DNA from: Sphaerimonospora thailandensis
GTDB lineage: Bacteria > Actinomycetota > Actinomycetes > Streptosporangiales > Streptosporangiaceae
NCBI RefSeq assembly: GCF_016863115.1
Contig: NZ_BOOG01000043.1
Coordinates: 1 to 64,000 of the forward strand
DNA length: 64,000 nt
Direction: 5' to 3'
The translations under genes were made by a program, and so were the position numbers. Under the pieces are notes generated by a model. It did no database searches, was not told the origin of the DNA, and saw nothing but the letters and a program-made list of their open reading frames with translations. The stretch's first letter is position 1, and every line of letters starts with the position of its first letter. Below are positions 13,723 to 61,959 of the stretch, one piece after another.

Positions 13723-13867
13723 GAGGGGTCCTTGATGTTCCGGGACCCCCTTACCCGAGGGCAGGGAGATCCGCGCTTGCCCCTGCCGGGCCGGCAGCGG
13801 CCAGGTCTTCCCTGGAGGGCACCTTGCGCGGTGAGGCGAGGTTGCCAGCCGACTCTGATCCAGGGGC

Positions 13868-20478: not shown

Positions 20479-21843
<1,365 letters not shown>

Positions 21844-29406: not shown

Positions 29407-29641
29407 TCCTGGCCCGTGTACTGGTGTGAATTGAAATCACAGCAACATTGACTAGAAGTCCTATTCATCGCTAGTCTTCTGGCAGGTCATGAGTTCCAGT
29501 GACAAGCCCCGGCTTGCTGGACGGCATCCCGCGCGCCGCGGGTGCCCCGGGTGACGACCTGCTCCACGCGGAGTGCGTGGAGAACGGCGGATCACCGGGG
29601 TGCGGCACTACCGGGGTCCCAGGCTCCGGAGGAACACATCC

Positions 29642-35485: not shown

Positions 35486-36190
35486 GTGACTACGAACAAG
35501 CCTAAGGCTGTGGTGCTGTTGAGCGGCGGCCTTGACTCGACCACGGTCCTGGCGATCGCGCGGGATGAGGGGTACGAGACGTACGCCCTCAGTTTCCGAT
35601 ACGGTCAGCGACACACCGAGGAACTCGAGGCTGCGAAGAAGATCGCTGTTGAGTTGGGCGCTGCCAAGCACGTGATCGCCGACATCAACCTCGCCGTCTT
35701 TGGAGGCTCGGCTCTCACGGACGATTCGCTCGCGGTCCCTCATTATGAGAGCGTAGACGATCTGGGCGAGGAAATTCCGATCACATACGTACCCGCCCGA
35801 AACACCGTCTTCCTGTCTTTCGCGCTGGCTTGGGCAGAGACCCTTGGCTCTTCGGACGTTTTCATTGGGGTGAACGCTCTGGACTACAGCGGGTACCCGG
35901 ACTGTCGTCCCGAGTACATCGAGGCCTACGAACGTATGGCCAACCTCGCGACCAAGGCAGGTGTGGAGGGCACGCAGCAACTCAAGATCCACACTCCTCT
36001 GATCCAACTCACCAAGGCCCAGACGATTCAGCGTGGGTTGGAGCTGGGCGTCGACTACTCCTGGACGCACAGTTGCTACGACCCGATCGACGGCCACGCC
36101 TGCGGGACTTGCGACTCCTGCCTTCTTCGTGGGCGGGGTTTTGTCGAACTGGGTTTGGTCGACCCCTCCGTCACCTCAGCGAAAGCGTAA
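35486..36190 (+). CDS. queC: 7-cyano-7-deazaguanine (preQ0) synthase QueC
   Basis: 234 aa from GTG 35486, with GGAGGG 8 bases upstream; earlier ATGs at 35393 and 35465 give a poor N-terminus. The ATP-pyrophosphatase motif [10 protein letters not shown] lies near residue 12. The zinc site is the C-terminal Cys cluster in [20 protein letters not shown]. QueC converts 7-carboxy-7-deazaguanine to preQ0 using ATP and ammonia. First gene of the four-gene preQ0 module. In this operon preQ0 is the precursor of modified DNA bases rather than, or as well as, tRNA queuosine. Confidence 0.95.
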
Positions 36191-36197
36191 TGCGGTC

Positions 36198-36836
36198 GTG
36201 TACCGGATCAAGGAGATCTTCTACACACTGCAGGGCGAAGGAAGTCATGCTGGACGGCCTTCCGTCTTCTGCCGGTTCACTAGCTGCAACTTGTGGACTG
36301 GCAGGGAGAAGGACCGACACCGGGCTATATGTCAGTTCTGCGATACCGACTTCGTTGGTACGGATGGTCCAGGTGGAGGGCGTTTTCGGACCGCGGCAGA
36401 CCTCGCAGTGGCAGTAGCCAAGGCCTGGCAGGGGCGACTCCACGCGCGTAGCCAACCCTATGTCGTCTGCACAGGCGGGGAACCGCTTCTACAGTTGGAC
36501 ACAGCGGCAGTGGATGCGCTGCATGCTGAAGGATTCGAGGTCGCCATTGAGACCAATGGAACCCTTCCTGCGCCGAGTGGCATCGACTGGATCTGCGTGA
36601 GCCCGAAGGCCGGCACAGAGTTGGCGCTCACTTCCGGGAATGATCTAAAGCTGGTCTACCCGCAGGTCGGGGCCGAGCCGCACCTATATGAGGATCTCGA
36701 TTTCGACCGCCTGCTACTTCAACCGATGGACGGTCCAGACCTTATCGCTAACACGAGGTCTGCGATCGATTACTGCCTTGAGCATCCCCAGTGGCAACTG
36801 AGTATCCAAACCCACAAGACCTTGGGCATCCGTTGA
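36198..36836 (+). CDS. queE: 7-carboxy-7-deazaguanine synthase QueE
   Basis: 212 aa from GTG 36198. A radical SAM enzyme: the cluster is Cys30, Cys45 and Cys48, a C-x14-C-x2-C spacing instead of the usual C-x3-C-x2-C. This long insert is known from the Burkholderia multivorans type of Que[10 protein letters not shown] near residue 11 and CTGGEPLLQ are the other family motifs. It converts 6-carboxytetrahydropterin to 7-carboxy-7-deazaguanine. The stop codon overlaps the TTG start of queD. Confidence 0.93.
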
Positions 36837-37192
36837 TAGAGATCTTCCGTGAGTTCACATTCGAAGCCGCCCACCGACTTCCCAATGTGTCGCCAGGGCA
36901 CAAGTGCGCGCGTCTGCACGGTCACAGCTACCGTGTAGAAGTGCATGTAAAAGGTGAGATTGATTCCTCTACCGGATGGCTTATGGACTTCGCGGAACTT
37001 AAGGCCGCATTCAAGCCCTTGGAGGAGCAACTCGATCATTACTACCTCAACGAAATTCCAGGGTTGGAGAATCCAACCAGCGAGGTTCTCGCTAAGTGGA
37101 TCTGGGACCGCCTACGGGACGTACTTCCGTTATCAGCCGTAGCCGTTCGAGAGACATGCACCTCAGGGTGTGTCTATCGAGGGGAGAACTGA
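36833..37192 (+). CDS. queD: 6-carboxytetrahydropterin synthase QueD
   Basis: 119 aa from TTG 36833, which overlaps the queE stop (TTGA). The zinc ligands are His14 (EAAHRL), His29 and His31 (RLHGHS), and the nucleophile is Cys25 (HKCARLHGH). The C-terminal [15 protein letters not shown] and RETCTSGC (catalytic Glu) are typical. The start is supported because [13 protein letters not shown] is the usual N-terminus of the family. It makes 6-carboxytetrahydropterin from dihydroneopterin triphosphate. Confidence 0.93.
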
Positions 37193-37986
37193 TGCTGGAG
37201 GATGTGCAGGCCCGACCCGATACTCGTGGGGTCGCACTCGAAGAGGTCGGAATCAAGGGGTTGCGCTACCCGGTTCTTGTTGCGGACGGCCAAGGCGCCA
37301 AGCGCGAAACCGTCGCTACTGCGGTGCTGTCAGTCAGTCTTGCACCCGACGTCAAGGGGGCACACCTCAGTCGATTCGTGGAAGTGCTGCACGGGTCTCG
37401 CGACCAGTTGACCCTCGAATCGGCGCTCAGGCTTGCCGACGATCTTCGGCATCGGATGGGCAGTCCGAGCGCTCAGATTCATTTCACGTTCCCTTATTTT
37501 CTCGAACGTGAGGCGCCGGTCACGCGGGCCCCAGCCTACGTGGAATATACCTGCGGGCTCTCTGCGTCGAGCGACCCTCGCGGCGCTGAGGTGACTCTCA
37601 CCGTGGACGTTCCGGTCACGAGTGTCTGTCCATGCAGCAAGGCAATCAGTGATCGAGGTGCCCATAACCAGAGGGGGCACATCTCCATCGAGGTGAAGCC
37701 GTCAAGTCTTGAGACTGACTTGTGGTTCGATGAACTCATCGAGATCGCCGAAACAGCCGCCTCGTCACCAGTGTATGCGCTGCTAAAGCGACCAGATGAG
37801 CGGTACGTGACCATGGCCGGCTACGATAACCCCGTCTTCGTGGAGGACATGGCTCGGAACGTATGTCTCGTTCTGGACACATCCAGTCGTGTCGCCGCCT
37901 ACCGCCTGCAGGTAGTCAACGACGAGAGCATCCACAACCATGCTGCGTACGCTGCTGTCTCCTGGAAGTCCTCGAAGGGCGCATAA
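37192..37986 (+). CDS. folE2: GTP cyclohydrolase FolE2 (type IB)
   Basis: 264 aa from ATG 37192, coupled to queD (TGATG overlap; GAGGGGAG upstream). The family motifs are VTSVCPCSKAISDRGAHNQR, with the active-site Cys and His, and FVEDMARNV. It produces dihydroneopterin triphosphate from GTP, the first step to preQ0. Type IB enzymes can use metals other than zinc. Dpd islands often carry a FolE of type IA, so the use of FolE2 is noteworthy. Confidence 0.92.
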   Translation: MLEDVQARPDTRGVALEEVGIKGLRYPVLVADGQGAKRETVATAVLSVSLAPDVKGAHLSRFVEVLHGSRDQLTLESALRLADDLRHRMGSPSAQIHFTFPYFLEREAPVTRAPAYVEYTCGLSASSDPRGAEVTLTVDVPVTSVCPCSKAISDRGAHNQRGHISIEVKPSSLETDLWFDELIEIAETAASSPVYALLKRPDERYVTMAGYDNPVFVEDMARNVCLVLDTSSRVAAYRLQVVNDESIHNHAAYAAVSWKSSKGA

Positions 37987-37991
37987 GGCAG

Positions 37992-38948
37992 ATGGACCGT
38001 AGCGACGATCACAGTGAGCAGGCAGTGCATGTCGTCGTGACCTGCACCAACCGCAAGCGCGTTCCCGCAGATGACCGGCTTCGCGTCCGAAGCCTCGAAG
38101 CTGGAACCGTTGGGATGCGTTTTCGTTCCTGGCTGGAGCGGTTGGAGGCTGCCGAAGTTCGAGTTCCGGCACGTGACCTATACGCTGGCGAGCACTGGTT
38201 GATCGCTAACGATCTGGCCAAGACTCTCGGGGCGGACGCACATTTTTGGGTCTGTTCGGCTGGCTATGGCCTCATCCCTGCGGCAACGCCCATCGCGGCC
38301 TACGCCGCGACCTTCGCTTCTGGTCATGAAGATTCCGTGGCTGAGGGCGTCGACGGTGCTCGGGAGTGGTGGCGGCAACTCTGCCGGTGGGAGGGTCCAC
38401 AAGCCGGCCAGCCACGCTCGTTCGAAGAGTTGGCGAACCAGCATCCAGACTCGGCAATCGTCGCTGTCCTGTCAGAGCCGTACCTGAGGGCCTGTGCGTC
38501 TGACCTGCGTGCAGCAGCATCGCGCTTGGCTGAAAGCGACAACCTAGCGGTCATTGGACCCGCAGACCGAAGCCCCGAGCTGGCAGATCTCATCGTCCCA
38601 GTGACCGCAGCACTCCGGGCGTTGGTCGGTGGAAGTCTCCTCTCGCTCAACGTGCGCGTTGCGAGGCGCCTTCTGCAGGATTCGCGCGATCAGGGCGTGC
38701 GCCGTTCACTGCTGCTCAAGCTCATGGAGACGTTGACGGCCGAAGTGCCTGAACAGGTACGGAGACAACCGGGCATCCGCATGACTGATGAAGAGGTACG
38801 TTCTTTCATCAGACATCATGGAAAAGGATTCCGCTCGGCCACACCATTGCTGCGCAAGCTGAGGTCCTCTGGCCTCTCATGCGAGCAGGCACGTTTTCGT
38901 ACGCTCTTCCTCGACGAAGTGAGCCGCTTGGCGGAGGGGCGAGAGTGA
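37992..38948 (+). CDS. dpdC: probable DpdC, preQ0-to-amide conversion in DNA
   Basis: 318 aa. Motifs: HVVVTCTNRKR near residue 12, VPARDLYAGEHWLIAN and WVCSAGYGLIPA. The order (Cys-Thr-Asn, ARDLY-x-G-x-W, CSAGYGL) resembles the YaaA/DUF6884-like group. It lies between folE2 and dpdB, 5 bp after folE2 and overlapping dpdB by 4 bp. In the Salmonella Dpd system DpdC is needed to turn inserted preQ0 into 7-amido-7-deazaguanine. The name rests on position, size and family likeness, not on an alignment. Confidence 0.65.
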   Translation: MDRSDDHSEQAVHVVVTCTNRKRVPADDRLRVRSLEAGTVGMRFRSWLERLEAAEVRVPARDLYAGEHWLIANDLAKTLGADAHFWVCSAGYGLIPAATPIAAYAATFASGHEDSVAEGVDGAREWWRQLCRWEGPQAGQPRSFEELANQHPDSAIVAVLSEPYLRACASDLRAAASRLAESDNLAVIGPADRSPELADLIVPVTAALRALVGGSLLSLNVRVARRLLQDSRDQGVRRSLLLKLMETLTAEVPEQVRRQPGIRMTDEEVRSFIRHHGKGFRSATPLLRKLRSSGLSCEQARFRTLFLDEVSRLAEGRE

Positions 38949-40093
38949 GTACACCGCAGAAGCAGGCCATGACAGAGGTGCGCGCGCTGCGCATCATCCA
39001 AGCCAAAGACAATCCCCTTTACATTTTTATGTTGCGCGCCAAAGATGTTCTGCAGTTCGCCGATATCTCAAGGGTTAGTAGAGACGAAGCGGGAAAGCTC
39101 ATCGGATATCAACGTCCCCAGGTAAAAAAACATATTCAGGAGATCGTTCAGTATCTGGACAGCGACCTTCCGATCTTCCCCAACCCCATCATCATGGCAT
39201 TATCGCCTCGCGTTCATTTCCGGAGCACGCGGGGTGGCAACCGACATCTCGATGATGGTGTTTCCGATACTGGGCGGCTCTTCATTCCACGCTCAGACGA
39301 AGGAGAGCCAAGGCCTGCGTGGATCGTGGACGGTCAGCAACGAGCACTGGCCCTGGCTCAGACACAACGACAAGACTTCCCGGTACCCATTGCGGCGTTC
39401 GTTGCGGATACCATCAACCTGCAGCGTGATCAATTTGTTCGAATCAATAATACCAAGCCGCTTCCCCGGGGACTTGTGACGGAACTCCTTCCCGAGGTGA
39501 ACAGTCCACTCCCGCCGAGATTAGCTATTCGCAAGGCCCCATCACAGCTATGTGACATTCTAAACTCTGATAAGAGTTCACCGTTTTATGGTCTCGTTAG
39601 ACGGGCGTCGACAACTGCCTCCAACCGGACAAGTGCCGTTGTTACGGACACCGGCGTCGTCGACATGATCCAAGAGAGCCTGGTTTCCTCCTCTGGTTGC
39701 TTGTTTCCCTATCGCGACATCGTGAAGGGGGAAACCGATTTCGGTGGAATCATACAAGCACTGTTCCTGTATTGGTCAGCGGTCCGCGACACCTTCCCCG
39801 AAGCATGGGGAAGGCCGCCAGAAAAGAGCCGCCTCATGCATGGCGCTGGAATCCGATCCATGGGAAGACTGATGGACAGGATTCTTGGCACCGTTGATCC
39901 GCTACAAAAAGATGCATCCGATACGATACGGAAGCATCTTCAACTAATTGCACCGCACTGCAGATGGACATCGGGAAGTTGGGACGAGTTGGGTCACCGC
40001 TGGAACGAAATTGAGAACGTACCCAAGCATGTTCAGGAACTCTCCAACTACCTAATCCGCACCTACCAGAATGCTCGTAGGGTTCTCACGTGA
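38945..40093 (+). CDS. dpdB: DpdB, first copy (DGQQR/DndB-like)
   Basis: 382 aa from GTG 38945 (GTGA overlap with dpdC; GGAGGGG upstream). Two motifs of the ParB/DndB-like superfamily are seen: GYQRP at residues 54-58 and DGQQR at 129-133, followed by FVRINNTKPLPRGL. DpdB works with DpdA, and the pair is needed for preQ0 insertion into DNA, with ATP use by DpdB. The codons are more A/T-rich than those of the left half of the window. A second homologue lies after dpdA. Confidence 0.88.
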   Translation: MSTPQKQAMTEVRALRIIQAKDNPLYIFMLRAKDVLQFADISRVSRDEAGKLIGYQRPQVKKHIQEIVQYLDSDLPIFPNPIIMALSPRVHFRSTRGGNRHLDDGVSDTGRLFIPRSDEGEPRPAWIVDGQQRALALAQTQRQDFPVPIAAFVADTINLQRDQFVRINNTKPLPRGLVTELLPEVNSPLPPRLAIRKAPSQLCDILNSDKSSPFYGLVRRASTTASNRTSAVVTDTGVVDMIQESLVSSSGCLFPYRDIVKGETDFGGIIQALFLYWSAVRDTFPEAWGRPPEKSRLMHGAGIRSMGRLMDRILGTVDPLQKDASDTIRKHLQLIAPHCRWTSGSWDELGHRWNEIENVPKHVQELSNYLIRTYQNARRVLT

Positions 40094-41334
40094 AGTTCTA
40101 CTTTCCTGACAGTCAGGACCAGGTAAGCCCGACGTTCAATTTCGACACGGAGGAGCACTCGCCATATCGCGTACGCCAGCGTGATGACAAATACGCTCAC
40201 GAAATACTTGAGCCTCAACCATACGACGGATTACTCGTGAGCAAGGCTATTGTTGATGGCTCGGTCAAAGGTGCCGGTAAGTACTCGATGCCACAGCGAG
40301 AGCGACTGTACCGCTTGGGTGTGACCAGATACTTCAGATTGCACGAGCACGTCGATACGCTTGGCGACTGCGGCGCTTTTAACTATATAAACGAAGAGGT
40401 TCCCCCCTACACCATCGATGAGGTTTTGGACTTCTATGAGCGGTGCGAGTTCGACGCCGGCATCAGCATCGACCATGTGATCTTTGGTTATGACTCTATT
40501 ACCGCCGATGCTGATGTGAACCCGGCCTGGAAAGAGAGAAGGCAGATCTCTCTTCGATACGCTTCGGCATTCATCGAGGAAGTCAAGGACAGAAGGTCTG
40601 CACTCGAACCCGTGGGAGCGGCACAGGGATGGAGTCCGACTAGCTACGCAGACAGCGTCCGGTGTTTGCAGGAGTTCGGCTACCAACGGATCGCCCTTGG
40701 GGGCATGGTTCCTCTCAAGACCCATGATATTCTTGCTTGCCTCAAAGAGATCGAGCAGGTGCGTTGGCCACAAACCAAACTCCACCTTCTCGGTATCACT
40801 CGAGTCGAGTCGATGGAGGAATTTGCCGAGTACGGAGTCACCAGTTTCGACAGCACCTCTCCCTTCCGGCAAGCCTTCATGGACGATCGAAACAACTACC
40901 ATACTCTTGACGGCGCATATACCGCTATACGAGTTCCCCAGGTAGACGGAAATCCCACACTAAAGCGACGTGTCCTGGCCGGAGCGGTATCCCAGCCAAA
41001 GGCTAAAGTAATGGAGCGGGAGTGCCTTCGGCGCTTGCGTGGCTACGACTCGGGTGCGGAAACAGCAGACCGGGTACTCGAGATTCTCGGCGAGTACGAA
41101 TCGCTGACCGAACCCGCGAGCAAAAAGAGCAAGCTACCCGCGTACCGCGAAACGCTAGAGGCCAAACCGTGGAAGTATTGCCGATGCACTCTGTGTACAA
41201 CTCATGGAGTTGAGATAATTGTTTTCCGCGGCTCGGAGCGGAACAAGAGACGCGGTTTCCATAACCTAGCAGTCTTCGCTGAGAAGATTCGCCATATCAA
41301 AAACCCCACCTCGAACAGGAGATCAAATGGCTGA
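40090..41334 (+). CDS. dpdA: DpdA, DNA guanine transglycosylase (TGT paralogue)
   Basis: 414 aa from GTG 40090 (GTGA overlap). TGT-fold landmarks: Asp93 in GDCGAF (DSGGFQ-equivalent), Asp254 in SFDSTSPFRQA (nucleophile region) and LGGMVPLK. The C-terminal zinc-type cluster is CRCTLCTTHG followed by a His in GFHNL. These fit a transglycosylase that exchanges guanine in DNA for preQ0. Its length and insertions differ from housekeeping tRNA TGT, and the DpdB neighbours settle the assignment. Confidence 0.92.
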   Translation: MKFYFPDSQDQVSPTFNFDTEEHSPYRVRQRDDKYAHEILEPQPYDGLLVSKAIVDGSVKGAGKYSMPQRERLYRLGVTRYFRLHEHVDTLGDCGAFNYINEEVPPYTIDEVLDFYERCEFDAGISIDHVIFGYDSITADADVNPAWKERRQISLRYASAFIEEVKDRRSALEPVGAAQGWSPTSYADSVRCLQEFGYQRIALGGMVPLKTHDILACLKEIEQVRWPQTKLHLLGITRVESMEEFAEYGVTSFDSTSPFRQAFMDDRNNYHTLDGAYTAIRVPQVDGNPTLKRRVLAGAVSQPKAKVMERECLRRLRGYDSGAETADRVLEILGEYESLTEPASKKSKLPAYRETLEAKPWKYCRCTLCTTHGVEIIVFRGSERNKRRGFHNLAVFAEKIRHIKNPTSNRRSNG

Positions 41335-42445
41335 CCGCCATACGCTTCGTCTTCCAGCGCTGGAGGTCAGGCAAGGATCGCGTCGCATCTACTGTTTTGC
41401 AGTCGACGGTAAGAGACTCCACGAATTCGCGGCCGTATCCAGGATCCGTCGCGATCCGGAAGACCAACTGCAGGGGTATCAGCGCCCAGAAGTAGCAAAT
41501 CATATTCGTGCCATTCAGAGGTACCTTGAGTCCGAGAACCCGATGCTTCCGAACGCCTTGGTCCTCGCGTTCGACAGTCGCGTGATCTTTGAGCCAGCAG
41601 CGTCGTCGGCGGACAACGCGGTCGGATACTCGGTCCTCGGAGAGCTCGTCGTCCCAATCGATGAAACCTTGGAAGATGATCAGAAGCCTGCGTGGGTGGT
41701 TGATGGACAACAACGAAGCGCTGCGATCCGTGAGGCCGACATCGGCGAGTTCCCAGTTGCTGCAGTTGCCTTTATAGCGGACAGCGAGGCCGAGCAACGT
41801 GCTCAGTTCATCCTTGTCAACAACACCAAGCCTCTTCCAAAGGGCCTCATCCACGAACTGCTCCCGGACACGAGCGGCCACCTTCCGCCCGCCTATGCCC
41901 GTCGGCAACTGCCTGCTGTTCTAATGACCCGCCTCAACGGAACGTTCAAGGGACCCTTCTACGGTGCGATCGCTACGCCAACATCTCCCGATGGCTATAT
42001 CAAGGACAACAGCGTCCTGCGGATGATCGAGCACAGCCTGTACGAGGGTGCCCTGTATAAGTATCGGGATCCCGCCACCGGCGCTGGCGACATCGAGCAG
42101 ATGCTGCTCCACCTGAACACTTACTGGGGACTCGTTCGGGATACATTCCCACAGGCATGGGAACTTCCTCCGCGGCTATCCCGCCTGACCCACGGCGTGG
42201 GTATCCAAGCCATGGGGTTCATCATGGACCACCTCACGGAAGACCTGATGCCGAGCGATATCAACTCAGCGGTCAATGAGGGGCTGAAGCGCCTTGAGGC
42301 GTGCGCCGCTTGGACGTCTGGGGTCTGGAATTTCGGTGACGGAGATGCCCGCAAGTGGAATAGTCTCCAGAACACGCCGAACGACGTCCGAATGCTCACG
42401 AACGGCCTGCTCCGTCTGATCAACCAGCAGCGTCTGTTCGACTGA
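41327..42445 (+). CDS. second DpdB-like protein
   Basis: 372 aa from ATG 41327, 8-bp overlap with dpdA. It has the same landmarks as the first DpdB: QGYQRPEV at residues 49-56, DGQQR at 126-130, and FILVNNTKPLPKGLIHELLP. Sequence outside the motifs is clearly different and GC content is higher, so this is an old duplication or a separate acquisition, not a recent copy. It may form a hetero-oligomer with the first DpdB or select other target sequences. Last gene of the plus-strand operon. Confidence 0.85.
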   Translation: MADRHTLRLPALEVRQGSRRIYCFAVDGKRLHEFAAVSRIRRDPEDQLQGYQRPEVANHIRAIQRYLESENPMLPNALVLAFDSRVIFEPAASSADNAVGYSVLGELVVPIDETLEDDQKPAWVVDGQQRSAAIREADIGEFPVAAVAFIADSEAEQRAQFILVNNTKPLPKGLIHELLPDTSGHLPPAYARRQLPAVLMTRLNGTFKGPFYGAIATPTSPDGYIKDNSVLRMIEHSLYEGALYKYRDPATGAGDIEQMLLHLNTYWGLVRDTFPQAWELPPRLSRLTHGVGIQAMGFIMDHLTEDLMPSDINSAVNEGLKRLEACAAWTSGVWNFGDGDARKWNSLQNTPNDVRMLTNGLLRLINQQRLFD

Positions 42446-42446
42446 G

Positions 42447-42486
42447 CAATCGTCCGGCCACTCGTTCGCCGAGGGCCGGACGATTG
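42447..42486. terminator. bidirectional terminator between convergent dpd operons
   Basis: CAATCGTCCGGCC (42447-42459) and GGCCGGACGATTG (42474-42486) form a perfect 13-bp stem with a 14-nt loop. It starts 2 bp after the dpdB-like stop codon and lies 30 bp from the stop of the minus-strand operon. Confidence 0.85.
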
Positions 42487-42515
42487 TGCGTAGCTTACCG
42501 AGGCAGTGCTGTCAC

Positions 42516-50192: not shown

Positions 50193-53100
50193 TTCTCGGT
50201 ACCCTCCATCGCACTCAGCGCTGCCCACTCCTGGAGAAGTGTCTGCACTTCGTCTGTGATTGAGTCCCCCGTGCCCCCGTGCCGCTCTCTTGCATCTGCG
50301 AGCGCCCTGGTCAGCCAGGTATCCGAAGCAACTAGGAAAGCGCAGATCACCTGAAGGCTGGCCCCATGGTCACGGGCGGCCGCTACGAGTGCCCTGTCAA
50401 ACTGGCCCTCTGCCGACGCGGAAGTAATGCTTTCGAGATCCCTTTCAGCAGCGGCTATCGCACGCCAGTCCGCGCCCTCGGCTGCTGCAGCCAGTTGAAG
50501 AATCCTCTGCCGCTCCATCAGGTTCGGCGACAAGCCGACAGTGTCAGCTGCTTCGAGGCTGGCTCGAATAGCATCGACCGTAGCCTTGCCTTCTCCACCG
50601 CGCGGTGCGCGCGATCTGATCTCCGCGACCATCTCTTTGAGTTGGTCGACCTGCTGGCTGACTGCGCCTTCGAGGCCGCTGAGTCCTGAGACGGTGTTAC
50701 CGACCCATTTCGGCACCCCACCTGAGGAATCCCACCGCCAAGACCGGGCAGCTTCCAAAACGAGTGGTAGGGCCCGAGCAGCATCGATCATGCGAACGGC
50801 ACCTGTCACCCCCTGGCTGATACCCAGACGAGATCGGAGAGCGCCTACCAGTGATGCACGCTCACGCAAGTGATTCTCAAGCCGTAGGCGCCAGGCTGGG
50901 ACTCGAGATGCAAGATCTCCGCGCTTCCAAGTACTGCCGTCGTCGAAGGCAACATCCATGAGTTCGATGTCGCTCATTCCAGGCCAGGCCCGGCCGGCAA
51001 GCGCGGCACCCACGAGCGAGACCTTTAATCCTACCACCAGGCTCTCGTCGGAACTCTCTATGAACTTCACAAGCGCATTCGAGAAGCTTCCACCATGGTT
51101 CTCGGCAATGCGAGCCAGTCGCCAGGTCGCTTCCGAACGCGCCCCGGGAGCACCTTCTTGCGCTAGCAGCAGCGATTGGAAGAACTGACTGTTTGTTGCA
51201 TTCCTGAGGAAGGAAATGGGAGCCCTCTCGACCCCGGGGAGATTCTCCCCCGCCCCCTCGATGGAGACAGTGATCGCCTTGGCCGGCCAGACCTTTTCGA
51301 TCGACCCCTCCCCCTTCTGAGGCAACTCCTTCATAAGGGGAGACGACCAGAGGTAACGACGAGTGACCGCGTTTATAGCCAGGGTGCGCAACTCACGAGC
51401 GAGGACTTGATCCAATCTCTTGTCGCGCGCCGCCCAATCTTCGAGCCTCTGCAGCTTGCCCTTGAGTGACTTCGAAATCCCGTCACTACGAGGCACCAGC
51501 GAAACGGTCTTTTCTCCTACCCTCTGACCTCGGTCAGAGTCGCCCTCGCCATTCGATGGGAGCAGATCCTCATCAAAAACAGGTAGGCCGAATGCATTTC
51601 GGATACCCTCCTCTATATGCCCAGCATTGTCTGGGGCATCTGCCCAGAACTCGAGAATAAGCCGGTGCCTGTGCGGGTCGACATGATTGTGGTTTCCAAT
51701 GAACTCATCGACACTCGTTGGCAGAGCGGTGTCAATCTCTGCTGTCCGGAACCGCTCACGGAGGCGTTCGGCAGGAAAGGAACCATCCCTAATCTCATTG
51801 GCTGAGTCAACCAGGACCGGTCGAATAACGCTACCGAGGAAGGTACGAGGCACGAAGGCCCATGGCCGGTTGGATGGTGCAACCGAATGGGCCATGCGGA
51901 GAAGCGAGGATCGATTAAACGGGTAAAGGCCGTATCCCTCGCTCGTCAGGCCGAAGGACTCATGACATTCAGTCTTGAGGGAGCAATTCTCGCAGGCGTT
52001 TGTAAAGTTTTTTCCCCCGGCCCTCTCAAGCTCCTCTCGTCCGACGCGCGCAGCGTTGAGATATCGGCCGGCAAACGACGCAATCTCCTCCACCCCCGCG
52101 TTTCCCTCATCAAACACCTGATCAAGGTCATAGACGTAACCTGTGGTCGAGGCAGATACCCGACTCATCACGGTCTCGGGGAGGTCACGGAAGTAACCCG
52201 TCGTGACTGCCATCAGCGTACGCATACTCGCATAGCGTTGACGTCCCTCTCGAGTCGCGGCTTCGGTCAGCGCCTCCAAGAGTTCGCGCTGCACCCCCTG
52301 AATAAGCGCGAAGTCCTCCACCAGGAGAATAATCTCTTTGTCCTGCGTTTCATACGCTTCTCGGACCTCTAGCATCGCCTTAGCTAGTCGACCGGTACCG
52401 ATATTAGAAGCACTCTTTACGGCGCTTTCCATATGCGTATTCAGCATATCGACAGCGTCCTGCCGAAGATTCGGTATAGACAGCAACTTCTCAAGAAGCC
52501 TCTGCGCAATCACAGAGGCTTGCTTCACCTCTTGGACTTCCAGTGGAAGGTCTTCGACCGAGAAGCCTGGCGCCCGTTCAGGATTCTCAAGATCCCGATT
52601 GTTCAGAAGTTGTGCGGCATACTGTGGGATATATTTCCCAGGAGCGAGGAGATGCTGCTGGATGTAAGGGTCTTGAAGGAGCGAAGCAAGCCCCTTGGGA
52701 CCAGAAAGGACGCGCGCCTGCCTAGATGGGACATCATCTGGTCCAGTTTTCGCTAGTGCCTCATTCAGTGCGTTGATAAGACGGCGCGACAAACTTTCCT
52801 CGTCCACGCCCTCACTGAAGGAGCGGACGTCCTTGCGGAGTTGGTCTAGGGAATCTCCCTCTACACCTTCGAGAAGTTTTTCAACAACGGATTTTAGACT
52901 GGTTTCCGACTTTTCGAGGTAGATCACTCGCCGTCGTGCAGAGGAGGGGATATGTTCTCGTACCCACCTGACTAGATGCGATTTTCCGGATCCGGAGTCA
53001 CCCACCACTGGCATCAAGAGAGTGCCTGTGGTCAACTTACTCTCCAGGAAGTCCCGTAGAACTGTTCGCTCGTCTACTGTTATACCCGTTGGCTTCAGGT

Positions 53101-53245
53101 CTCGGCCCTTAATAAGCGAACGGCTGATCCTCAACGGGGCATGCGTTGCCAGGAAGACCTCAGCGGATGGATTGACGGCCTCTGTGCTGATCGTTGCAGA
53201 TGCGGTTTCAGGGGCCCAGCAGAGGTGGTTGCGAAGATCAGACAT
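50189..53245 (-). CDS. dpdH: DpdH, AAA-type ATPase
   Basis: 1018 aa. Walker A is MPVVGDSGSGKSHLVRWV near residue 80 and Walker B is KEIILLVEDFAL near residue 310. A Cys cluster (CENCSLKTECHESFG) near residue 410 may bind metal. The C-terminal 400 residues are helical and carry no known domain. It overlaps dpdG by 8 bp and dpdI by 4 bp. Its size and neighbours fit DpdH, the motor or sensor ATPase of the putative restriction module. Confidence 0.85.
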   Translation of the reverse strand: MSDLRNHLCWAPETASATISTEAVNPSAEVFLATHAPLRISRSLIKGRDLKPTGITVDERTVLRDFLESKLTTGTLLMPVVGDSGSGKSHLVRWVREHIPSSARRRVIYLEKSETSLKSVVEKLLEGVEGDSLDQLRKDVRSFSEGVDEESLSRRLINALNEALAKTGPDDVPSRQARVLSGPKGLASLLQDPYIQQHLLAPGKYIPQYAAQLLNNRDLENPERAPGFSVEDLPLEVQEVKQASVIAQRLLEKLLSIPNLRQDAVDMLNTHMESAVKSASNIGTGRLAKAMLEVREAYETQDKEIILLVEDFALIQGVQRELLEALTEAATREGRQRYASMRTLMAVTTGYFRDLPETVMSRVSASTTGYVYDLDQVFDEGNAGVEEIASFAGRYLNAARVGREELERAGGKNFTNACENCSLKTECHESFGLTSEGYGLYPFNRSSLLRMAHSVAPSNRPWAFVPRTFLGSVIRPVLVDSANEIRDGSFPAERLRERFRTAEIDTALPTSVDEFIGNHNHVDPHRHRLILEFWADAPDNAGHIEEGIRNAFGLPVFDEDLLPSNGEGDSDRGQRVGEKTVSLVPRSDGISKSLKGKLQRLEDWAARDKRLDQVLARELRTLAINAVTRRYLWSSPLMKELPQKGEGSIEKVWPAKAITVSIEGAGENLPGVERAPISFLRNATNSQFFQSLLLAQEGAPGARSEATWRLARIAENHGGSFSNALVKFIESSDESLVVGLKVSLVGAALAGRAWPGMSDIELMDVAFDDGSTWKRGDLASRVPAWRLRLENHLRERASLVGALRSRLGISQGVTGAVRMIDAARALPLVLEAARSWRWDSSGGVPKWVGNTVSGLSGLEGAVSQQVDQLKEMVAEIRSRAPRGGEGKATVDAIRASLEAADTVGLSPNLMERQRILQLAAAAEGADWRAIAAAERDLESITSASAEGQFDRALVAAARDHGASLQVICAFLVASDTWLTRALADARERHGGTGDSITDEVQTLLQEWAALSAMEGTEK

Positions 53246-54134
53246 TGTAATCCTTGATTACAGTGATTGAACTGAAGGTGTGCGCGGTCAATGGGCGTTC
53301 CGGATCATTGATGCTCAGCAACTGGTTAGCGTCGGCCTCTCGTTCGAACTTCAGCCACTCCTCGTACCCCCCACGCAATAGAGCGAACGAAAGGGCTGAA
53401 CCGGCAAATGTATCCTCGGGATCTTCAACACCAAGACCTCGCGAATATACCCCGCCCGGCAGGACAGGAATTTTTTCGCGCAGCACACGCACAAACTCCA
53501 CTGCATTGACATTCGCATTGTGCTCCCAGGTCTCCATCACGGTCTGCCTGACAGCGACAGTACAATCAGGCACGTACTGGCCGACGTCTCCCATAGTAGG
53601 CAGCGCTGCCGCGGCCAGGCCGAGAGCAGGAGCCCATGCCGTGAACCTGTTCCAGCGATTGGGATTGGTCACGGCGGGACGAGCCTCGACTATCAAGGCG
53701 CCATCTTGCAGAACTTCGAAATTGTTGGACCCTACTATCGTAGTTGTCGGGTCCAAACTGAGAAACCAGCAAAGTGCGCGAGTTAGATCAGCAGCACCGG
53801 TATGCTCTTTCCCGTTCTTAATGACTTTGTTCTGCTCAGGATTAAAAACTGCCCTTCGCAGGACAATACAGAAATCATCCCAACTGCTGCCATCCAGACT
53901 GGCCACTCGTCCTTCCAGCGAGATCCGATCGTCATCGGACTTCTGGATAATACCCAGCCCCAGCAGCGTGTTAATAGCCCGGTCGAACATCTTATGATCC
54001 CCACCGGTCAGCGATGATGGACTGAGTAGCTTGCGGGCTCGTTCAACTGCCATCGGGCGCTTCTCGTGCACGAGAAGGCGCACCAGGGCCCATGTAGGCA
54101 TGGGAAGCGATGCTTCAACATTGAGCAGAGTCAT
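53238..54134 (-). CDS. dpdG: DpdG
   Basis: 298 aa. No recognised catalytic motif. The N-terminus (LPMPTWALVRLLVHEKRPM) and the following 80 residues look like winged-helix DNA-binding folds. The middle has TTTIVGSNNFEVLQDGALIV. It is adjacent to dpdF (no gap) and overlaps dpdH. The name follows from the conserved order dpdF-dpdG-dpdH and the size. Confidence 0.75.
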   Translation of the reverse strand: MTLLNVEASLPMPTWALVRLLVHEKRPMAVERARKLLSPSSLTGGDHKMFDRAINTLLGLGIIQKSDDDRISLEGRVASLDGSSWDDFCIVLRRAVFNPEQNKVIKNGKEHTGAADLTRALCWFLSLDPTTTIVGSNNFEVLQDGALIVEARPAVTNPNRWNRFTAWAPALGLAAAALPTMGDVGQYVPDCTVAVRQTVMETWEHNANVNAVEFVRVLREKIPVLPGGVYSRGLGVEDPEDTFAGSALSFALLRGGYEEWLKFEREADANQLLSINDPERPLTAHTFSSITVIKDYNV

Positions 54135-56723
54135 CTAGAGCGCCCCCAATGCGCTTTGAATGGAGAGAGTGCTGCTATGAACGTCAATAAGACGATATCC
54201 CGGTTTCTTGGGATGCGAAAGATCCTGATGGTGAATTAAGTAGGTCGAGTCCATGCTCCAGAAGCGCTCCTTTACGTCGTCATTCATCACTTGCTGATTG
54301 GAATCGAGCATCCAGACAACTGAGCCTTGATAACTACAGAGGAGGTCTTCATCCTGATCTACGATGACCACCTCGGGGCGAACGGACTTCTGAATCTTTC
54401 CAAGGATACGCTCATCGACACCCGGTCCCCCGATCACCGCGATACCCCGACGACATAGCGCCTCGATGAGATCGGGAACAAGGCTTCTAGCTTCCCTCTC
54501 ATCCCTCCACCAGATGCTGAGGTTCCTATCGCCCTCAGCCAAGTAGTTCCACAGTGGGAGATTCGAGTCAGCCCGCCATTGGGTAAGTGATGGGTGCGGT
54601 TGCCAACCAGTACGATAGAAGCCTCCTGGAGGTGGAAGCGCCTCCTTGCGACGGCAATGATTGCATCCTCGGCATGTCGGCGAGGTGCGAAGTGGACCGT
54701 CAGCAGTCGGTAAAGTGTAGTAGCCGACGAGGATGTCGGCCATGCATATATCGCCGGCGACGGCAGCCTTGAGTTGCGTCAGCGCATTTGTCTGGCTCGC
54801 AAGCATTCCGCTGCGCGCGGCCTCGATTGCGTTATTGAAGTATTGTGGATCATTGGTCTTGCCGTCGAGAATCACAACATCCACACGACTAGACAGCAAC
54901 TTGTAATAGGCCGCCAGTCGCTCGGTCCACTCATCTTCCGGTTCGTCCCCACTGGGACTCGGCACCGGCGGGGTCCTGACTTCCACCAGTTTCGCTCGCA
55001 CCATCAGATTGAGTGTGCGGATGTTCCAGGTGCGGTTCATCTCTGTGCTGACCGAAATGTTTGGCGGTCGCGTGTCCAAGTCGATCAGGTAGCCGTCCGC
55101 TGTCTTGGCTATCTTGTTGTTGAACATGCTTATCCACCTAGGCCATGCTTGGCCCTTGATGATGACCGGACTGTTGATGCTCTTGGCGATTTCGCTATCT
55201 CGCCGGGTTGTCACCATGTAGGCAACGGATGGGCTTCCGTCACGGCCGCCGCGGCCGACCTCCTGGTAGTACCGGTCCACAGTCTCTGGTAAGCACGCGT
55301 GAACCACGCTCTTGACATCGGGCAGGTCGATCCCCAGACCGAAGGCAGACGTACCGACGATCACGTCGTACCGCGTCGGGAGCGGTCCGGACGCTCCGTT
55401 ACCGCTCCATCCCTCCATCCGTTCGCGCCGTTGGTCGGCGCTAGCGTCGCCAGTGACGGATGCCGTGCGGAGGAACCCTATCTCCTTGATCCGACTCTCC
55501 CACTTGTAGGCATCATCGACCATAGACACATACAAGATCATCGGTCGCGGCAACTTGGCCACCGCTTCCAGAACTGCCTCTTCGCGTTCTTTCGCCGGCA
55601 AGGACTCGATGTAGTAACTGGGTTCGCTCCTCAACTGGGAGGCCCAGACGACCTGCGTTGTCTCGGATTCACCATAGAGATCCTTGATGGCGTCGACCTG
55701 CTGCGCGGTCAGTGTGGCACTCATCACGATGGTCCGTGGTTCCCGTCCCTTCGGTGAGCGACGGATCCACGCACGGCGCTGGCCTGCCATCGTCTGGAAG
55801 TCGGGGCGGAAGTCGTTGCCCCATTGCTCGATAAGATGCGCTTCGTCGATCACAAAATATCGCAGCAACCCTGCTTCCGCAGCATCGTCCAGTGCAGAGT
55901 GGAGGCCGGTAGTGATTGACTCCGGAGCCGCGTAGATGACCGGTTGACGGCCGGTGCGGATATCTTCGCGAAGATCACGCTTCAAGTCGTCTGGGAGATC
56001 ACCCGTGTAGGCGTAGCGTCCACTCGGAGCTGCCCGCCGGCTCTGGCCCAGCAACGCCCTCGTCCGCCGCTCCATGTCGAGGGCTAGGACAACAGTCGGC
56101 ACGACGACTACTGATACTCCAGCACCCTTGTCATCGAGAAGGATCGGTGCAAGTGCAACCGGCGTTTTACCGTGCCCTGTCGGGAGACAGACGATGGTCG
56201 TGGTTCCGGGAGGTGCCATGGCGACTGAGCGAGCAGCCTGGCGCTGGCCGATCGAGTAATAGCTGTCGTAGCCGAGGGACGCGGTCCAGAAGGGGTCGGC
56301 CGGAAGGCCAGCGAGAGTACGTCGCTGCAGCGAATCCTGGCCACGGTAGACCTCGCGGAGGTCGGCTTCGACCGCCTCCTTCGCCAAACCGTCAGGGGTG
56401 GGCGGGTGCCAGGGCACTGCCCTCACCACGAGTTGCTTCGAGTCCCCGGTGGCAGCCTGGCATCCGCATTCCCACCACTGAGCGAAGGTGGGGAGCAGTG
56501 GGTCGACCGGGACGGTGAGAGGCGAGTGATTCCCACGAGCGACTGCCTCTAGGAGGATCTGGCGGGTAAGCGCAGCCACATCCCGCCACCCTGATGCACC
56601 GAAGGACAAGGCGGCGAGTGCGTCCGCCAGTCGACGAGCAGTGCCGCTGGCACCATCAGGAGCCACGACAGTCGGCCACTCGGCGTAGAGTTGCTTGGCC
56701 TGAACCCAACTGTTCGTGCTCAT
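54135..56723 (-). CDS. dpdF: DpdF, RecQ-like helicase
   Basis: 862 aa from ATG 56723 (ATGA overlap with dpdE). Motifs: TIVCLPTGHGKTPVALAPIL (Walker A), FVIDEAHLIEQWG (DEAH), IVMSATLTAQQ (motif III), GTSAFGLGIDLPDVKSVVHA (motif V) and YYQEVGRGGRDG (motif VI). A Cys cluster (CRGCNHCRR) stands in the position of the RecQ zinc domain. Belongs to the restriction module of Dpd. Confidence 0.88.
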   Translation of the reverse strand: MSTNSWVQAKQLYAEWPTVVAPDGASGTARRLADALAALSFGASGWRDVAALTRQILLEAVARGNHSPLTVPVDPLLPTFAQWWECGCQAATGDSKQLVVRAVPWHPPTPDGLAKEAVEADLREVYRGQDSLQRRTLAGLPADPFWTASLGYDSYYSIGQRQAARSVAMAPPGTTTIVCLPTGHGKTPVALAPILLDDKGAGVSVVVVPTVVLALDMERRTRALLGQSRRAAPSGRYAYTGDLPDDLKRDLREDIRTGRQPVIYAAPESITTGLHSALDDAAEAGLLRYFVIDEAHLIEQWGNDFRPDFQTMAGQRRAWIRRSPKGREPRTIVMSATLTAQQVDAIKDLYGESETTQVVWASQLRSEPSYYIESLPAKEREEAVLEAVAKLPRPMILYVSMVDDAYKWESRIKEIGFLRTASVTGDASADQRRERMEGWSGNGASGPLPTRYDVIVGTSAFGLGIDLPDVKSVVHACLPETVDRYYQEVGRGGRDGSPSVAYMVTTRRDSEIAKSINSPVIIKGQAWPRWISMFNNKIAKTADGYLIDLDTRPPNISVSTEMNRTWNIRTLNLMVRAKLVEVRTPPVPSPSGDEPEDEWTERLAAYYKLLSSRVDVVILDGKTNDPQYFNNAIEAARSGMLASQTNALTQLKAAVAGDICMADILVGYYTLPTADGPLRTSPTCRGCNHCRRKEALPPPGGFYRTGWQPHPSLTQWRADSNLPLWNYLAEGDRNLSIWWRDEREARSLVPDLIEALCRRGIAVIGGPGVDERILGKIQKSVRPEVVIVDQDEDLLCSYQGSVVWMLDSNQQVMNDDVKERFWSMDSTYLIHHQDLSHPKKPGYRLIDVHSSTLSIQSALGAL

Positions 56724-59700
56724 CGGACGCCAATCTGCTGGCCGAATCGGATGATGCAAGTCACTGCGACAACCTTCACTGTTGGTCGCGTGAGATTGTC
56801 GATCAAGGCCTGTGTAACTGCCACGTCTGTGAGTAGGCTCTCGGCGTCGCCTACGAGATGCCCAGCTAGTTGACGAGTACGGGCCTGCGCTATGGTGACA
56901 GCAACACGCTGTCTTGCCTCATCCTGAGCACGCGCACATCGCTCGGACAGTTCCTTCGTTTCAGCCAAGTGAGCTCTTGCGGCCAACTCGGAGGAGGAGG
57001 CTGAGACGCGGTAACCATCCCATCCGTTGAAGATCTCCAGCAAACCCTGCAGGCGGATTGCGTTGAAGTTCTGATCCTTCTTGTTGTCATAGGGTTGGTC
57101 CAGCCATGCCCGAGCCTTCTCATTGATGACTGGTTTGCCGGATCCCGCGTCGATCCAGACCTTTAGCGTGAACGGCGCGAGAAGCTTATCCGCCTGGCGC
57201 CGCAGGGCGCGACTCGCGTCGGGGTGATCACCTGCGAGGGCGAGAGCGCCAGTGAGATCTGCCTCAACTAGGTAGTCGAAGCCGAAGTACGCCTGCGGTT
57301 CTCCTCGGTAACCCCTGTCAAGTCGCCGGAAAGCGGTTGCCTGGCCACGATCCTCGAGGTACACGGCCTCAGCCAGGACATCGACAAGAGGGTTACCGAT
57401 GCGGAAGAGACGGGTGCCTGGGTGCTTGAGTGCCATGTTGCGGTTGAACGTGCCGCGCAATACCTCGGGCGTGAGTCGCGTGCGCGCGGCACGCCACAGA
57501 CGCGGCTCGATCTTCGGCGTCGGCCCGGAGGCATCGAAGATCATATTCGGGCAACCGTCGACGGTCCTCTCGTTGTAACGAAGCCCGATTCCACCCGAGG
57601 TGTCGACATAGCCGGACAGAGCCTGGCTGATGTCGCGCCAACCGAATTCCATTTCCTGCAGGGAGGTGGCGATGTCACGGCCCTGGATGGAGGTCTCATG
57701 GATCGATTCCAGCATGTCCATCTTGTCAATCTCGCGTCGGGCCTCGGCGAGATCGGCCTTCACCCGCGCGGCCATGGCCAGCAGACCTTCGAGGCCCCCC
57801 TCAAGCCCAGAAGCCCAGACGTCGTTCAACCCTTCGGCGATGGCATCTTGAAGCGTCGAGACCGACACTGAGAACAACTCGTACCCATTGAGCAGTAATT
57901 CGACCCATGCTTCGAGGTAAGAGGCACCCGCGTCCTCATCGGCCAACCGGTACTGGAGAGCAGGGGTCCGACGGCCGGATACGCCAGGATACCTGTCCAC
58001 GCGCCCGAGTCGCTGCTCAAGTTGGTTCGGGGACCAAGGCAGGCGCAGATGGACAACCGCCTCGGCATCCTGGAGGTTGAGTCCCTCCTCTGCGGTGTCG
58101 TCTGCGATTAGAACGCGTGTCGCGGGACCGTCCTTGGCAGACCATCTCACCAGCGAATGCTCCGACGCCTCGGTTCCCGCCCTGCCCGAATGTTCAAGGA
58201 TGGCGACACTTCGGAAGCGCCTACTCATGCAGTCGGTAACCGCCCCGGCAAGCATCCCAGATCCACAGAAGATCACCGTCCGGTGACTCTTCTTCAGCGC
58301 CGGCAGCAACTCGGTCACGAGTGCGTTGACGATCTGAGACGCCTCGGCTTCCTGTTTCGCAGCCTGCCACTCTGTGAGCAAGTGCCGCTCCACGTCGAGC
58401 ACTTCAGGTTTGCCAAGCAGTTCACGCTCCTGGGTATTCAGCCCCGCCCTAACTGCTGCTCCTTCGTCTCGGTTGATGCGCCAGGCGAGCGCGTCTCTCA
58501 GATCGTTGGACCAACCGCCCGCGCGGGCAAAGAGGACAGCGAGCACCATTCCGTATTTCGCCTTATGCTGCTCAAGACCATGGTCGAGAAGGTAATCCCA
58601 GACTAAGGATCGCCAGTCCATGAGCATGGTCTGGGCCGCCTCGTGAGCACTGTTCGTCGTCGGCAAGAGGACGGGCGCCTGCCGGCCGCGGACTTCGTAG
58701 GGAAGGTACACAGCTTCGGGATCGTCGACCGTGACGCTCAACCTGCGGTGCCTGATGACGCGGCGATGGAGTCTGTAGGCTTCGCTGATGTGCGCCCTAA
58801 GCGCCTCAGTTCGCGCCTTAAGGTCGGCTTCGTCGGCACCGTCGCGGAGTTCATCGTTCTCGTCCAGCAGGGCGAGGACCTGTTGGCTCAGTTCGCAGAA
58901 CCGCTCGTCTAAGTCGGGGATGATCTTTTGGATATCTGCGATCGCGTCGGGAAGCAGGTAGGTGAACTCGCTGTCCAGGGCGTGAACGTAACTGGCCAGT
59001 TCGGAGCGCAATTGATACTTGCGCTCGAATCCAGCGAGATCGGACCACTTGTAGAGGTCCGGGTCCAGAAGATGTAGCAGCGCAAGCTGAGTCACATAGT
59101 TCGACATGACCGGAGTCGCAGTCATGAGAAGAACACGTTCTGCTGTGTGGACGACGTGTGCGAGTTGCTTATAGGGGTTGGCCTCGGGAGCCATGACCTG
59201 GACAAGTCGGTGTGCCTCGTCCACAACAACCAGGTCGCTCGCCTTCCAGTCCGACCATCGTCCGGGGGCATCATGAGAGAGGATCCGAATCTTTGCGAAA
59301 GGGAAGTCTACGATGAAAAACTTGTCAACGAGTTCCCGTTGCCACTGGCGTCGCAGAACGTCAGGGGCAATGACGCAGACCTTGGCATACGGGTTATCGA
59401 CCAGAGTCTGACGTATCACAAAGCCAGCCTCGATCGTCTTACCCAAACCAACCTCATCGGCGAGTAGGTAGCGCTGAACGGGATCTGACAGCACAGTGAG
59501 TGCCGCATGGACCTGGTGCGGGAAGAACTCAACAGCCGAAGACAGCAGTGCTGAGGTGCTGGCGGATGCTGCTCGCTGGGCGATCAGATTGCGGAGGAAC
59601 GGCAAGCGAGCATTGTGAAAGAAACCAGACTCGTTGCCACCCGAGGTCAGGACCTGAACCGGGTCTGCCACAGGCCGGTCCCACCGTACCCGTAGTTCAT

Positions 59701-60010
59701 CCTCACGTACGGGGAAGTCGAAGTCGGCGTTGGGAAACCGAACGTAGTACTCGCCGGGGTGAATTTGGTCCTTGACCCTACCTGCCATCCACACCCCCGT
59801 GTCCGGGTTGCGTCGATACACGCGTGTCTCAGGGGCAAGGGTCACATGCTTGCATTCAGACTCCGGAATATTGACGGAATGAACTACGGTCTGAGCTACA
59901 GACTCAAAGAAGTCGATCTGAAGCTGCGAGTCTGAAATTTGGCTGATTCGTCCGACACCGGGGGAACCGCCGTATTCGACTAGTTGCCCGGTGGTAAATC
60001 GTTTCGACAT
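56720..60010 (-). CDS. dpdE: DpdE, SNF2-type helicase
   Basis: 1096 aa from ATG 60010, chosen because SKRFTTGQLVEYGGSPGVGR is a natural N-terminal beta-barrel start; the frame is open to an ATG at 60127, but that part is unlike protein. Motifs: LLADEVGLGKTIEAGFVIRQ (Walker A), DLVVVDEAHRLVQ (DEAH), LLMTATPVMSN (motif III), AEEGLNLQDAEAVVHL and NQLEQRLGRVDRYPG (motif VI). First gene of the minus-strand dpd operon. No separate promoter can be marked between it and the decayed helicase upstream. Confidence 0.88.
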   Translation of the reverse strand: MSKRFTTGQLVEYGGSPGVGRISQISDSQLQIDFFESVAQTVVHSVNIPESECKHVTLAPETRVYRRNPDTGVWMAGRVKDQIHPGEYYVRFPNADFDFPVREDELRVRWDRPVADPVQVLTSGGNESGFFHNARLPFLRNLIAQRAASASTSALLSSAVEFFPHQVHAALTVLSDPVQRYLLADEVGLGKTIEAGFVIRQTLVDNPYAKVCVIAPDVLRRQWQRELVDKFFIVDFPFAKIRILSHDAPGRWSDWKASDLVVVDEAHRLVQVMAPEANPYKQLAHVVHTAERVLLMTATPVMSNYVTQLALLHLLDPDLYKWSDLAGFERKYQLRSELASYVHALDSEFTYLLPDAIADIQKIIPDLDERFCELSQQVLALLDENDELRDGADEADLKARTEALRAHISEAYRLHRRVIRHRRLSVTVDDPEAVYLPYEVRGRQAPVLLPTTNSAHEAAQTMLMDWRSLVWDYLLDHGLEQHKAKYGMVLAVLFARAGGWSNDLRDALAWRINRDEGAAVRAGLNTQERELLGKPEVLDVERHLLTEWQAAKQEAEASQIVNALVTELLPALKKSHRTVIFCGSGMLAGAVTDCMSRRFRSVAILEHSGRAGTEASEHSLVRWSAKDGPATRVLIADDTAEEGLNLQDAEAVVHLRLPWSPNQLEQRLGRVDRYPGVSGRRTPALQYRLADEDAGASYLEAWVELLLNGYELFSVSVSTLQDAIAEGLNDVWASGLEGGLEGLLAMAARVKADLAEARREIDKMDMLESIHETSIQGRDIATSLQEMEFGWRDISQALSGYVDTSGGIGLRYNERTVDGCPNMIFDASGPTPKIEPRLWRAARTRLTPEVLRGTFNRNMALKHPGTRLFRIGNPLVDVLAEAVYLEDRGQATAFRRLDRGYRGEPQAYFGFDYLVEADLTGALALAGDHPDASRALRRQADKLLAPFTLKVWIDAGSGKPVINEKARAWLDQPYDNKKDQNFNAIRLQGLLEIFNGWDGYRVSASSSELAARAHLAETKELSERCARAQDEARQRVAVTIAQARTRQLAGHLVGDAESLLTDVAVTQALIDNLTRPTVKVVAVTCIIRFGQQIGVR

Positions 60011-60123
60011 GCGAGCGTGATGGATCGGCTTCCCCTCGGTGGACTGATTGCGATTCTCCTCGAACGGCAACGCGACCTCGATCAGCCTATTCCGGGGGGT
60101 GCCGTTCGAGTCGGTCCCACTGA

Positions 60124-61950: not shown

Positions 61951-61959
61951 CGCGGCAGC

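Follow-up and report, generated by a model that had tools for sequence, protein, structure and literature searches.

A probably complete Dpd island for 7-deazaguanine modification of DNA in Sphaerimonospora thailandensis, with two distinct DpdB proteins flanking DpdA

The window analyzed here comprises 64,000 nucleotides of the actinomycete Sphaerimonospora thailandensis (contig NZ_BOOG01000043.1, positions 1 to 64,000). It carries a 24.6-kb island of two convergent operons (35486-60127), which we read, with a probability of about 0.88, as a complete Dpd (7-deazaguanine in DNA) system for the synthesis of 7-cyano-7-deazaguanine (preQ0), its insertion into DNA by DpdA with the help of a pair of DpdB proteins, its conversion by DpdC, and restriction by DpdD to DpdK. 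Two dpdB genes flank dpdA, and their products, termed DpdB-U (upstream) and DpdB-D (downstream), are 38% identical. The island itself belongs to an already known system. According to the parts of two papers available to us, preQ0 is made from GTP, DpdA inserts it with the ATPase DpdB, DpdC converts it to 7-amido-7-deazaguanine (ADG), and the dpdD-K operon restricts unmarked DNA (PMC11888242, PMC12839542). Gene identities, reading frames, gene order and the counts of QueC and tRNA-guanine transglycosylase (TGT) genes come from the present analysis, while the enzymatic steps and the restriction were inferred from published islands. By analogy, FolE2, QueD, QueE and QueC would produce preQ0 from GTP, DpdA would exchange selected guanines of the DNA for it with the aid of the DpdB pair, DpdC would convert most of the inserted preQ0 to ADG, and the DpdD to DpdK proteins would restrict DNA without the mark. 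That the host DNA would carry the nucleosides of these bases (dPreQ0 or dADG) can soundly be inferred from the enzyme set and from the validated islands cited in PMC11888242; with dpdC intact, mainly dADG and some dPreQ0 would be expected.

NCBIfam models at their curated cut-offs served for the identification of the genes, with PADLOC and Pfam as additional profile sets. Of the 16 island genes 15 were recognized, 14 above the NCBIfam cut-offs and DpdC via PADLOC (Table 1); DpdC had no NCBIfam match and a weak match to Pfam DUF6884 under the cut-off. The plus strand reads queC-queE-queD-folE2-dpdC-dpdB-dpdA-dpdB, and the minus-strand genes dpdE-F-G-H-(I)-J-K-D run towards it. Adjacent genes overlap or almost abut. 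No internal stop was present in the 15 frames read, and the 16th, a small gene in the place of dpdI, is an open frame as well. A first-pass annotation, made from the letters of the window, had described a complete Dpd island of two convergent operons with intact and tightly overlapped frames, and the model matches and the conserved gene order bear this out. Its four preQ0 synthesis genes and its probable DpdD all scored above cut-off. DpdC, DpdB and DpdA were named correctly, but the second dpdB gene had been overlooked. Of DpdE to DpdK, all claimed to be present, the ATPase, helicase and coiled-coil genes for DpdE, F, G, H, J and K matched their models above cut-off and the one for DpdI did not. 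The island end given at 60010 had to be corrected, since it is an internal ATG of dpdE in a frame open to 60127; as a start codon of dpdE, both are equally possible. For dpdK the frame is open to 45178, with an ATG at 45016 overlapping the dpdJ stop. DpdA residues 1-403 aligned with the solved DNA-guanine transglycosylase 7ui4, and GDCGAF, S[FI]DST and CxCxxC were retained. In DpdK, H174, K176, N190 and E201 (numbered from 45178) were invariant in 61 aligned rows, cut from 66 gathered sequences including the window, with some genomes present twice. Such histidine, lysine, asparagine and glutamate residues have a role in nucleases of the PLD type.

The arrangement of dpdA between two dpdB genes was found to be widespread. 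Both copies were present in 78 of 80 named loci. These 80 had ranked best among 226 relatives, and each is an actinomycete by its title. In addition, dpdB stood on both sides of dpdA in 17 of the 18 other genomes from this order that encode a full-length DpdA. The two sets share genomes, and the one order genome without dpdB (L037) has the same layout as L078, one of the two exceptions among the named loci. The other exception, L112, is a truncated locus lacking the upstream dpdB, with the downstream copy matching over 123 residues only. L119 gave a third DpdB-like match, weak with 24% identity, which was excluded from the counts. For plasmids, 14 of the 26 records with a DpdA match were fetched; among the 11 alphaproteobacterial ones, 9 carried the pair and none a lone copy. 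Thus, actinomycetes carry the dpdB pair as a rule and Alphaproteobacteria commonly, and it is not universal. As far as their available parts go, accounts of Dpd speak of one DpdB ATPase, whereas nearly all of the actinomycete loci and most of the alphaproteobacterial plasmid records examined here have dpdA between the genes of two distinct DpdBs. A 2025 survey counted, in its accessible sections, 2,335 unique dpd windows, 333 of them in Actinomycetota, and dpdB had the most additional copies, namely 801 (PMC11888242). An account of two positional DpdB families was found neither in the available parts of PMC11888242, PMC12839542, PMC12458937 and PMC6392294 nor among the entries listed by literature searches, which did not cover the founding Dpd papers, and we make no claim of priority. 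The pair makes the role of DpdB in the DNA base exchange directly testable, copy by copy.

In order to relate the copies to each other, a tree of 84 DpdB proteins was calculated. It included the window, 30 of the 78 two-copy actinomycete loci, 9 alphaproteobacterial loci, a phage-labelled contig, the Enterobacter copy and the lone copy of phage Mx4, and it is a quick tree whose sole support values are those of the Shimodaira-Hasegawa-like approximate likelihood ratio test. Across the 83 labelled rows the label upstream or downstream changed once, on a branch with a support of 100. At every two-copy locus compared, the upstream protein matched the DpdB-U of the window best and the downstream protein its DpdB-D, and the DpdBs of alphaproteobacterial plasmids belong to the same two families as those of actinomycetes. 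Across the 78 actinomycete loci each family was at least 45% identical, while DpdB-U and DpdB-D of the same locus shared 31-40%. Of the positions at least 97% conserved in both proteins, 59 held the same residue and 7 different residues. Judged from their sequences, the upstream and downstream DpdBs are two old paralogue families. An independent dpdB duplication in Alphaproteobacteria was rejected by an approximately unbiased test (p 2.8e-5), performed on a quick tree of 45 rows in which 16 rows, including two of the phage-labelled contig (L152), were constrained to group with each other. The single Enterobacter DpdB formed a long branch between the families; in a smaller tree the upstream family split off with a support of 100 and the downstream family with 72, and the larger tree left open whether this copy derives from a form that lost its partner or from a time before the duplication. 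Due to this position, the duplication may have followed or preceded the origin of the Enterobacter lineage.

The predicted structures of DpdB-U and DpdB-D reached a mean predicted local distance difference test score of 80 and 79, respectively, and predicted template modelling scores of 0.52 and 0.57. Residues ~15-170 aligned best with structures of ParB, Noc, KorB, PadC and sulfiredoxin (Srx), and these proteins made up all of the top 20 matches of DpdB-U and the top 16 of DpdB-D. The best Z-scores were 7.6 for DpdB-U (ParB) and 7.0 for DpdB-D (Noc/ParB), values under 8 that are no proof of a fold, and Foldseek gave no match at E<=0.001 for either protein. From these models a ParB/Srx fold of both DpdBs is probable. 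Their first ~170 residues may resemble the proteins of the ParB-CTPase fold, including DndB, from which both differ by a long helical C-terminal part.

We propose that DpdB-U and DpdB-D cooperate in the insertion step, perhaps by each contributing one half of a ParB-like, nucleotide-dependent DNA clamp. The proposal was made because the copies occur paired or not at all in the islands examined from actinomycetes and Alphaproteobacteria, apart from the one truncated locus, and it is supported by this co-retention, by the shared core motifs and by the probable ParB-like fold. A stricter form, which we rate as less likely than not, would have DpdB consist of two proteins in most of the islands studied: DpdB-U and DpdB-D would form an obligate heteromeric nucleoside triphosphatase clamp loading DpdA on DNA, this arrangement would predate the split of actinomycete and alphaproteobacterial islands, and the single-copy enterobacterial systems would be reduced or stem from before the duplication. 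Several observations weigh against a pair and its clamp. Locus L078 kept queC, queE, queD and dpdA as its sole island genes, and no dpdB was found there. Likewise, the fetched stretch held dpdA but yielded no DpdB in 2 of the 11 alphaproteobacterial plasmid records and in a Paenibacillus plasmid; such loci were L037/L078, L148 and L154. The Enterobacter plasmid and E. coli C7 each carry a single dpdB located 3' of dpdA, and the template modelling scores of the single-protein models are low. According to the part of PMC12839542 available to us, it has also been suggested that some clusters can do without DpdB. As single-copy and DpdB-less islands exist, the pair is no general requirement and a paired clamp is not the only way of insertion. 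A Scytonema plasmid yielded only a 40-bit DpdB match, despite the annotation of a DGQHR protein on it, and DNA matching the Enterobacter dpdA was found in 159 of the 5426 E. coli genomes searched.

The two copies might instead divide the labour, with DpdB-D as the ATPase of insertion and DpdB-U as a DndB-like repressor limiting the modification. DpdB matches the Pfam family of DndB, which the accessible parts of two papers characterize as repressing the dnd genes in an ATP-dependent manner (PMC12704722, PMC10853773). The position of the single enterobacterial copies 3' of dpdA would fit as well, and the Enterobacter protein is nearer to the DpdB-D of the window (338 bits) than to its DpdB-U (233 bits). 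In the tree, however, this gammaproteobacterial protein sits between the two families with an unsettled placement, and the same core motifs are held by both DpdBs in 79 rows each, so we consider such a division unlikely. With GYQR, VDGQQR, PLP, ELLP and WxxGxW kept in both proteins, the assumption that one DpdB is a dead copy found no support.

QueC, QueD and QueE are also employed in pathways to queuosine and to preQ0-derived metabolites, and the que genes of the island together with DpdA might serve a tRNA or such a metabolite and not DNA. The draft genome of the host (6.18 Mb, 166 contigs, 99% complete) yielded the island copy as the single match for QueC. No TGT was detected above the Pfam cut-off; the sole match below it was DpdA itself, with 22 bits as compared to 617 bits on the DpdA model. 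Moreover, the que genes run straight into dpdC-dpdB-dpdA-dpdB on one strand. We regard a role outside DNA as very improbable. As the draft genome holds neither a second QueC nor a TGT above cut-off, the preQ0 pathway is most likely devoted to DNA, as far as a draft assembly can tell. A silent or partly decayed island in an unmodified host is somewhat less remote, although still improbable. Broken genes lie in its surroundings, and the related loci L078 and L112 are reduced; on the other hand, 15 frames were read without stops, and a candidate promoter-like element 5' of queC, TTGGCA-17/18-TAC(G/C)CT, is shared with four related islands. A preQ riboswitch was searched for 5' of queC, and no Rfam match at the gathering threshold was obtained.

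DpdA was found above cut-off in 19 of the 345 genomes of the order, all of one family among the matches listed, and in 2 of 396 genomes of a sample of the phylum, the own genome being included in both counts. The closest named relatives of DpdA and DpdB came mostly from Streptosporangiaceae and Thermomonosporaceae. The GC content was 58.3% for the island, 68.5% for the left flank and 63.4% for the short right flank. This difference in GC, combined with DpdA in 19 of 345 genomes, fits a mobile defence island. The one other genome of the genus, which has no DpdA match (G212), was searched for an empty site; the flanks gave short scattered matches, and the insertion site was not found.

The Enterobacter cloacae plasmid pPOL9A, with genes annotated as Dpd, shares with the window a gene in the place of dpdC, dpdA, dpdB and dpdD/K/J/(I)/H/G/F/E in convergent order, but has one dpdB and no annotated que genes in the fetched stretch, whose gene table has gaps. 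E. coli C7 has the same Dpd genes and differs by its one dpdB and by dpdE-D lying on the dpdA strand. Both belong with the S. Montevideo system to one type of island. Islands of other Actinomycetota (Planotetraspora, Microbispora, Actinomadura, Streptomyces) share queC/E/D, folE2, dpdC-dpdB-dpdA-dpdB and often dpdD-K, although, in contrast to the window, their que genes often lie on the opposite strand. The Planotetraspora thailandica island (L024/L062) was 74-90% identical in the compared genes, with 57% for DpdC. Alphaproteobacterial plasmids (Sinorhizobium, Caulobacter, Skermanella) have the same dpdB-dpdA-dpdB core with the two DpdB families, but their que genes follow 3' of the second dpdB; no gene named dpdD-K was found in the fetched flanks of 4-6 kb, and unnamed helicase genes lie near two of them. 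Comparing DpdA and DpdJ with the window, identities of 73% and 32% were obtained for L063 and of 65% and 56% for L096, and DpdJ was under 45% identical in 12 of the 47 named loci whose stretch contained both genes. From these sequences, the modification and restriction modules seem to have had separate histories. In L063, L070 and L140 the modification cassette is close to that of the window and the restriction operon distant from it, which hints that modules were exchanged where the operons converge.

Some Dpd genes were also met on contigs of viral label. DpdB homologues nearer to the downstream type occur on L143 (phage Mx4), L173, L174 and L175, where no other Dpd or Que genes were matched in the fetched stretch; an orphan or counter-defence use is possible. 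The contig L152 (MT835580, labelled bacteriophage, unverified) holds a dpdC-dpdB-dpdA-dpdB-queE-queD-queC cassette of the alphaproteobacterial type, and L172 (IMG/VR) an actinomycete-type island including dpdD, dpdK and dpdJ. For both contigs, an origin from host DNA is possible.

The weakest member of the set is the gene in the place of dpdI (49506-50192), which can be called DpdI by position only. Against its assignment, and to that extent against the completeness of the system, it gave no match to the DpdI model NF041066 at E<=10 and none in PADLOC. Its frame is open to 50228, with an ATG at 50192 overlapping the dpdH stop. Relatives occupy the equal position in other actinomycete islands, and an unnamed gene likewise lies between dpdJ and dpdH in the Enterobacter and E. 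coli islands, with weak similarity only to the Enterobacter counterpart (hhalign probability 5.5%, hmmsearch 3.6 bits). In the accessible part of the survey, dpdD and dpdI are the genes not present in over 70% of the dpdAB islands (PMC11888242), and we treat DpdI as an accessory member of the system.

Table 1. Features of the Dpd island of S. thailandensis; scores are followed by the cut-off of the model.
Feature	Positions	Strand	Evidence
queC, preQ0 synthase	35486-36190	+	TIGR00364 214 bits (150)
queE, 7-carboxy-7-deazaguanine synthase, CX14CX2C variant	36198-36836	+	TIGR04508 348 bits (240); C30, C45xxC48
queD, 6-carboxytetrahydropterin synthase	36833-37192	+	TIGR03367 115 bits (89)
folE2, GTP cyclohydrolase of FolE2 type	37192-37986	+	NF010200 260 bits (215)
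dpdC, predicted preQ0-to-ADG conversion in DNA	37992-38948	+	PADLOC PDLC02817 252 bits, profile 3-296 of 299
dpdB, upstream copy (DpdB-U), probable ParB/Srx-fold protein	38945-40093	+	NF041060 426 bits (300)
dpdA, DNA-guanine transglycosylase	40090-41334	+	NF041059 617 bits (200)
dpdB, downstream copy (DpdB-D), probable ParB/Srx-fold protein	41327-42445	+	NF041060 513 bits (300)
GC-rich hairpin between the operons, candidate two-way terminator	42446-42487	.	81-nt fold -39 kcal/mol
dpdD	42516-44513	-	NF041061 553 bits (300)
dpdK, PLD-like nuclease	44495-45016	-	NF041068 183 bits (100)
dpdJ, YprA-like helicase	45016-49509	-	NF041067 1692 bits (800)
gene in DpdI place	49506-50192	-	position between dpdJ and dpdH
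dpdH, ATPase	50189-53245	-	NF041065 1078 bits (450)
dpdG	53238-54134	-	NF041064 122 bits (80)
dpdF, RecQ-like helicase	54135-56759	-	NF041063 832 bits (550)
dpdE, SNF2-like helicase	56720-60127	-	NF041062 1174 bits (500)

At the convergent junction, the hairpin reached a fold z-score of -4.4 (81-nt stretch versus 200 shuffles), and a scan for terminators with a T-run made no call there.

Nearly every other defence-type gene of the window had been described as broken. Tested in part, this held for a split helicase and a gene fragment, but not for an SNF2 gene of 886 amino acids (26746-29406, plus strand), which is open from end to end. The HmaA/DrmD-like helicase is split over two overlapping frames on the minus strand; the first (23157-26504) matches HmaA from profile position 244, and the second (25859-26584) the N-terminal helicase part of the DrmD and DpdE models. 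Directly 5' of dpdE, a weak NOV_C-like fragment (60154-60420, minus strand) is 29% identical to the C-terminus of the split helicase and is probably a gene remnant. The SNF2 gene was also considered as a second DpdE. It scored 878 bits on the PADLOC DpdE model and 91 bits on that of NCBIfam (cut-off 500), and was assigned to the general SNF2 helicases, a class that the PADLOC models for DpdE seem to cover as well. A SAM-IV riboswitch aptamer (29485-29593, plus strand, 87 bits) starts 79 bases 3' of this gene, and another one is located at 13768-13885 on the minus strand (61 bits). Transposase-type frames lie on the minus strand right of the island (61776-62204, HTH_Tnp_1) and ~14 kb to its left (20479-21843, DDE_Tnp_1). 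Two near-identical tRNA genes on the plus strand (11-86 and 173-248) were left unnamed by ARAGORN, which reported a four-base anticodon, ctgg; by eye, their anticodon loop has 8 bases.

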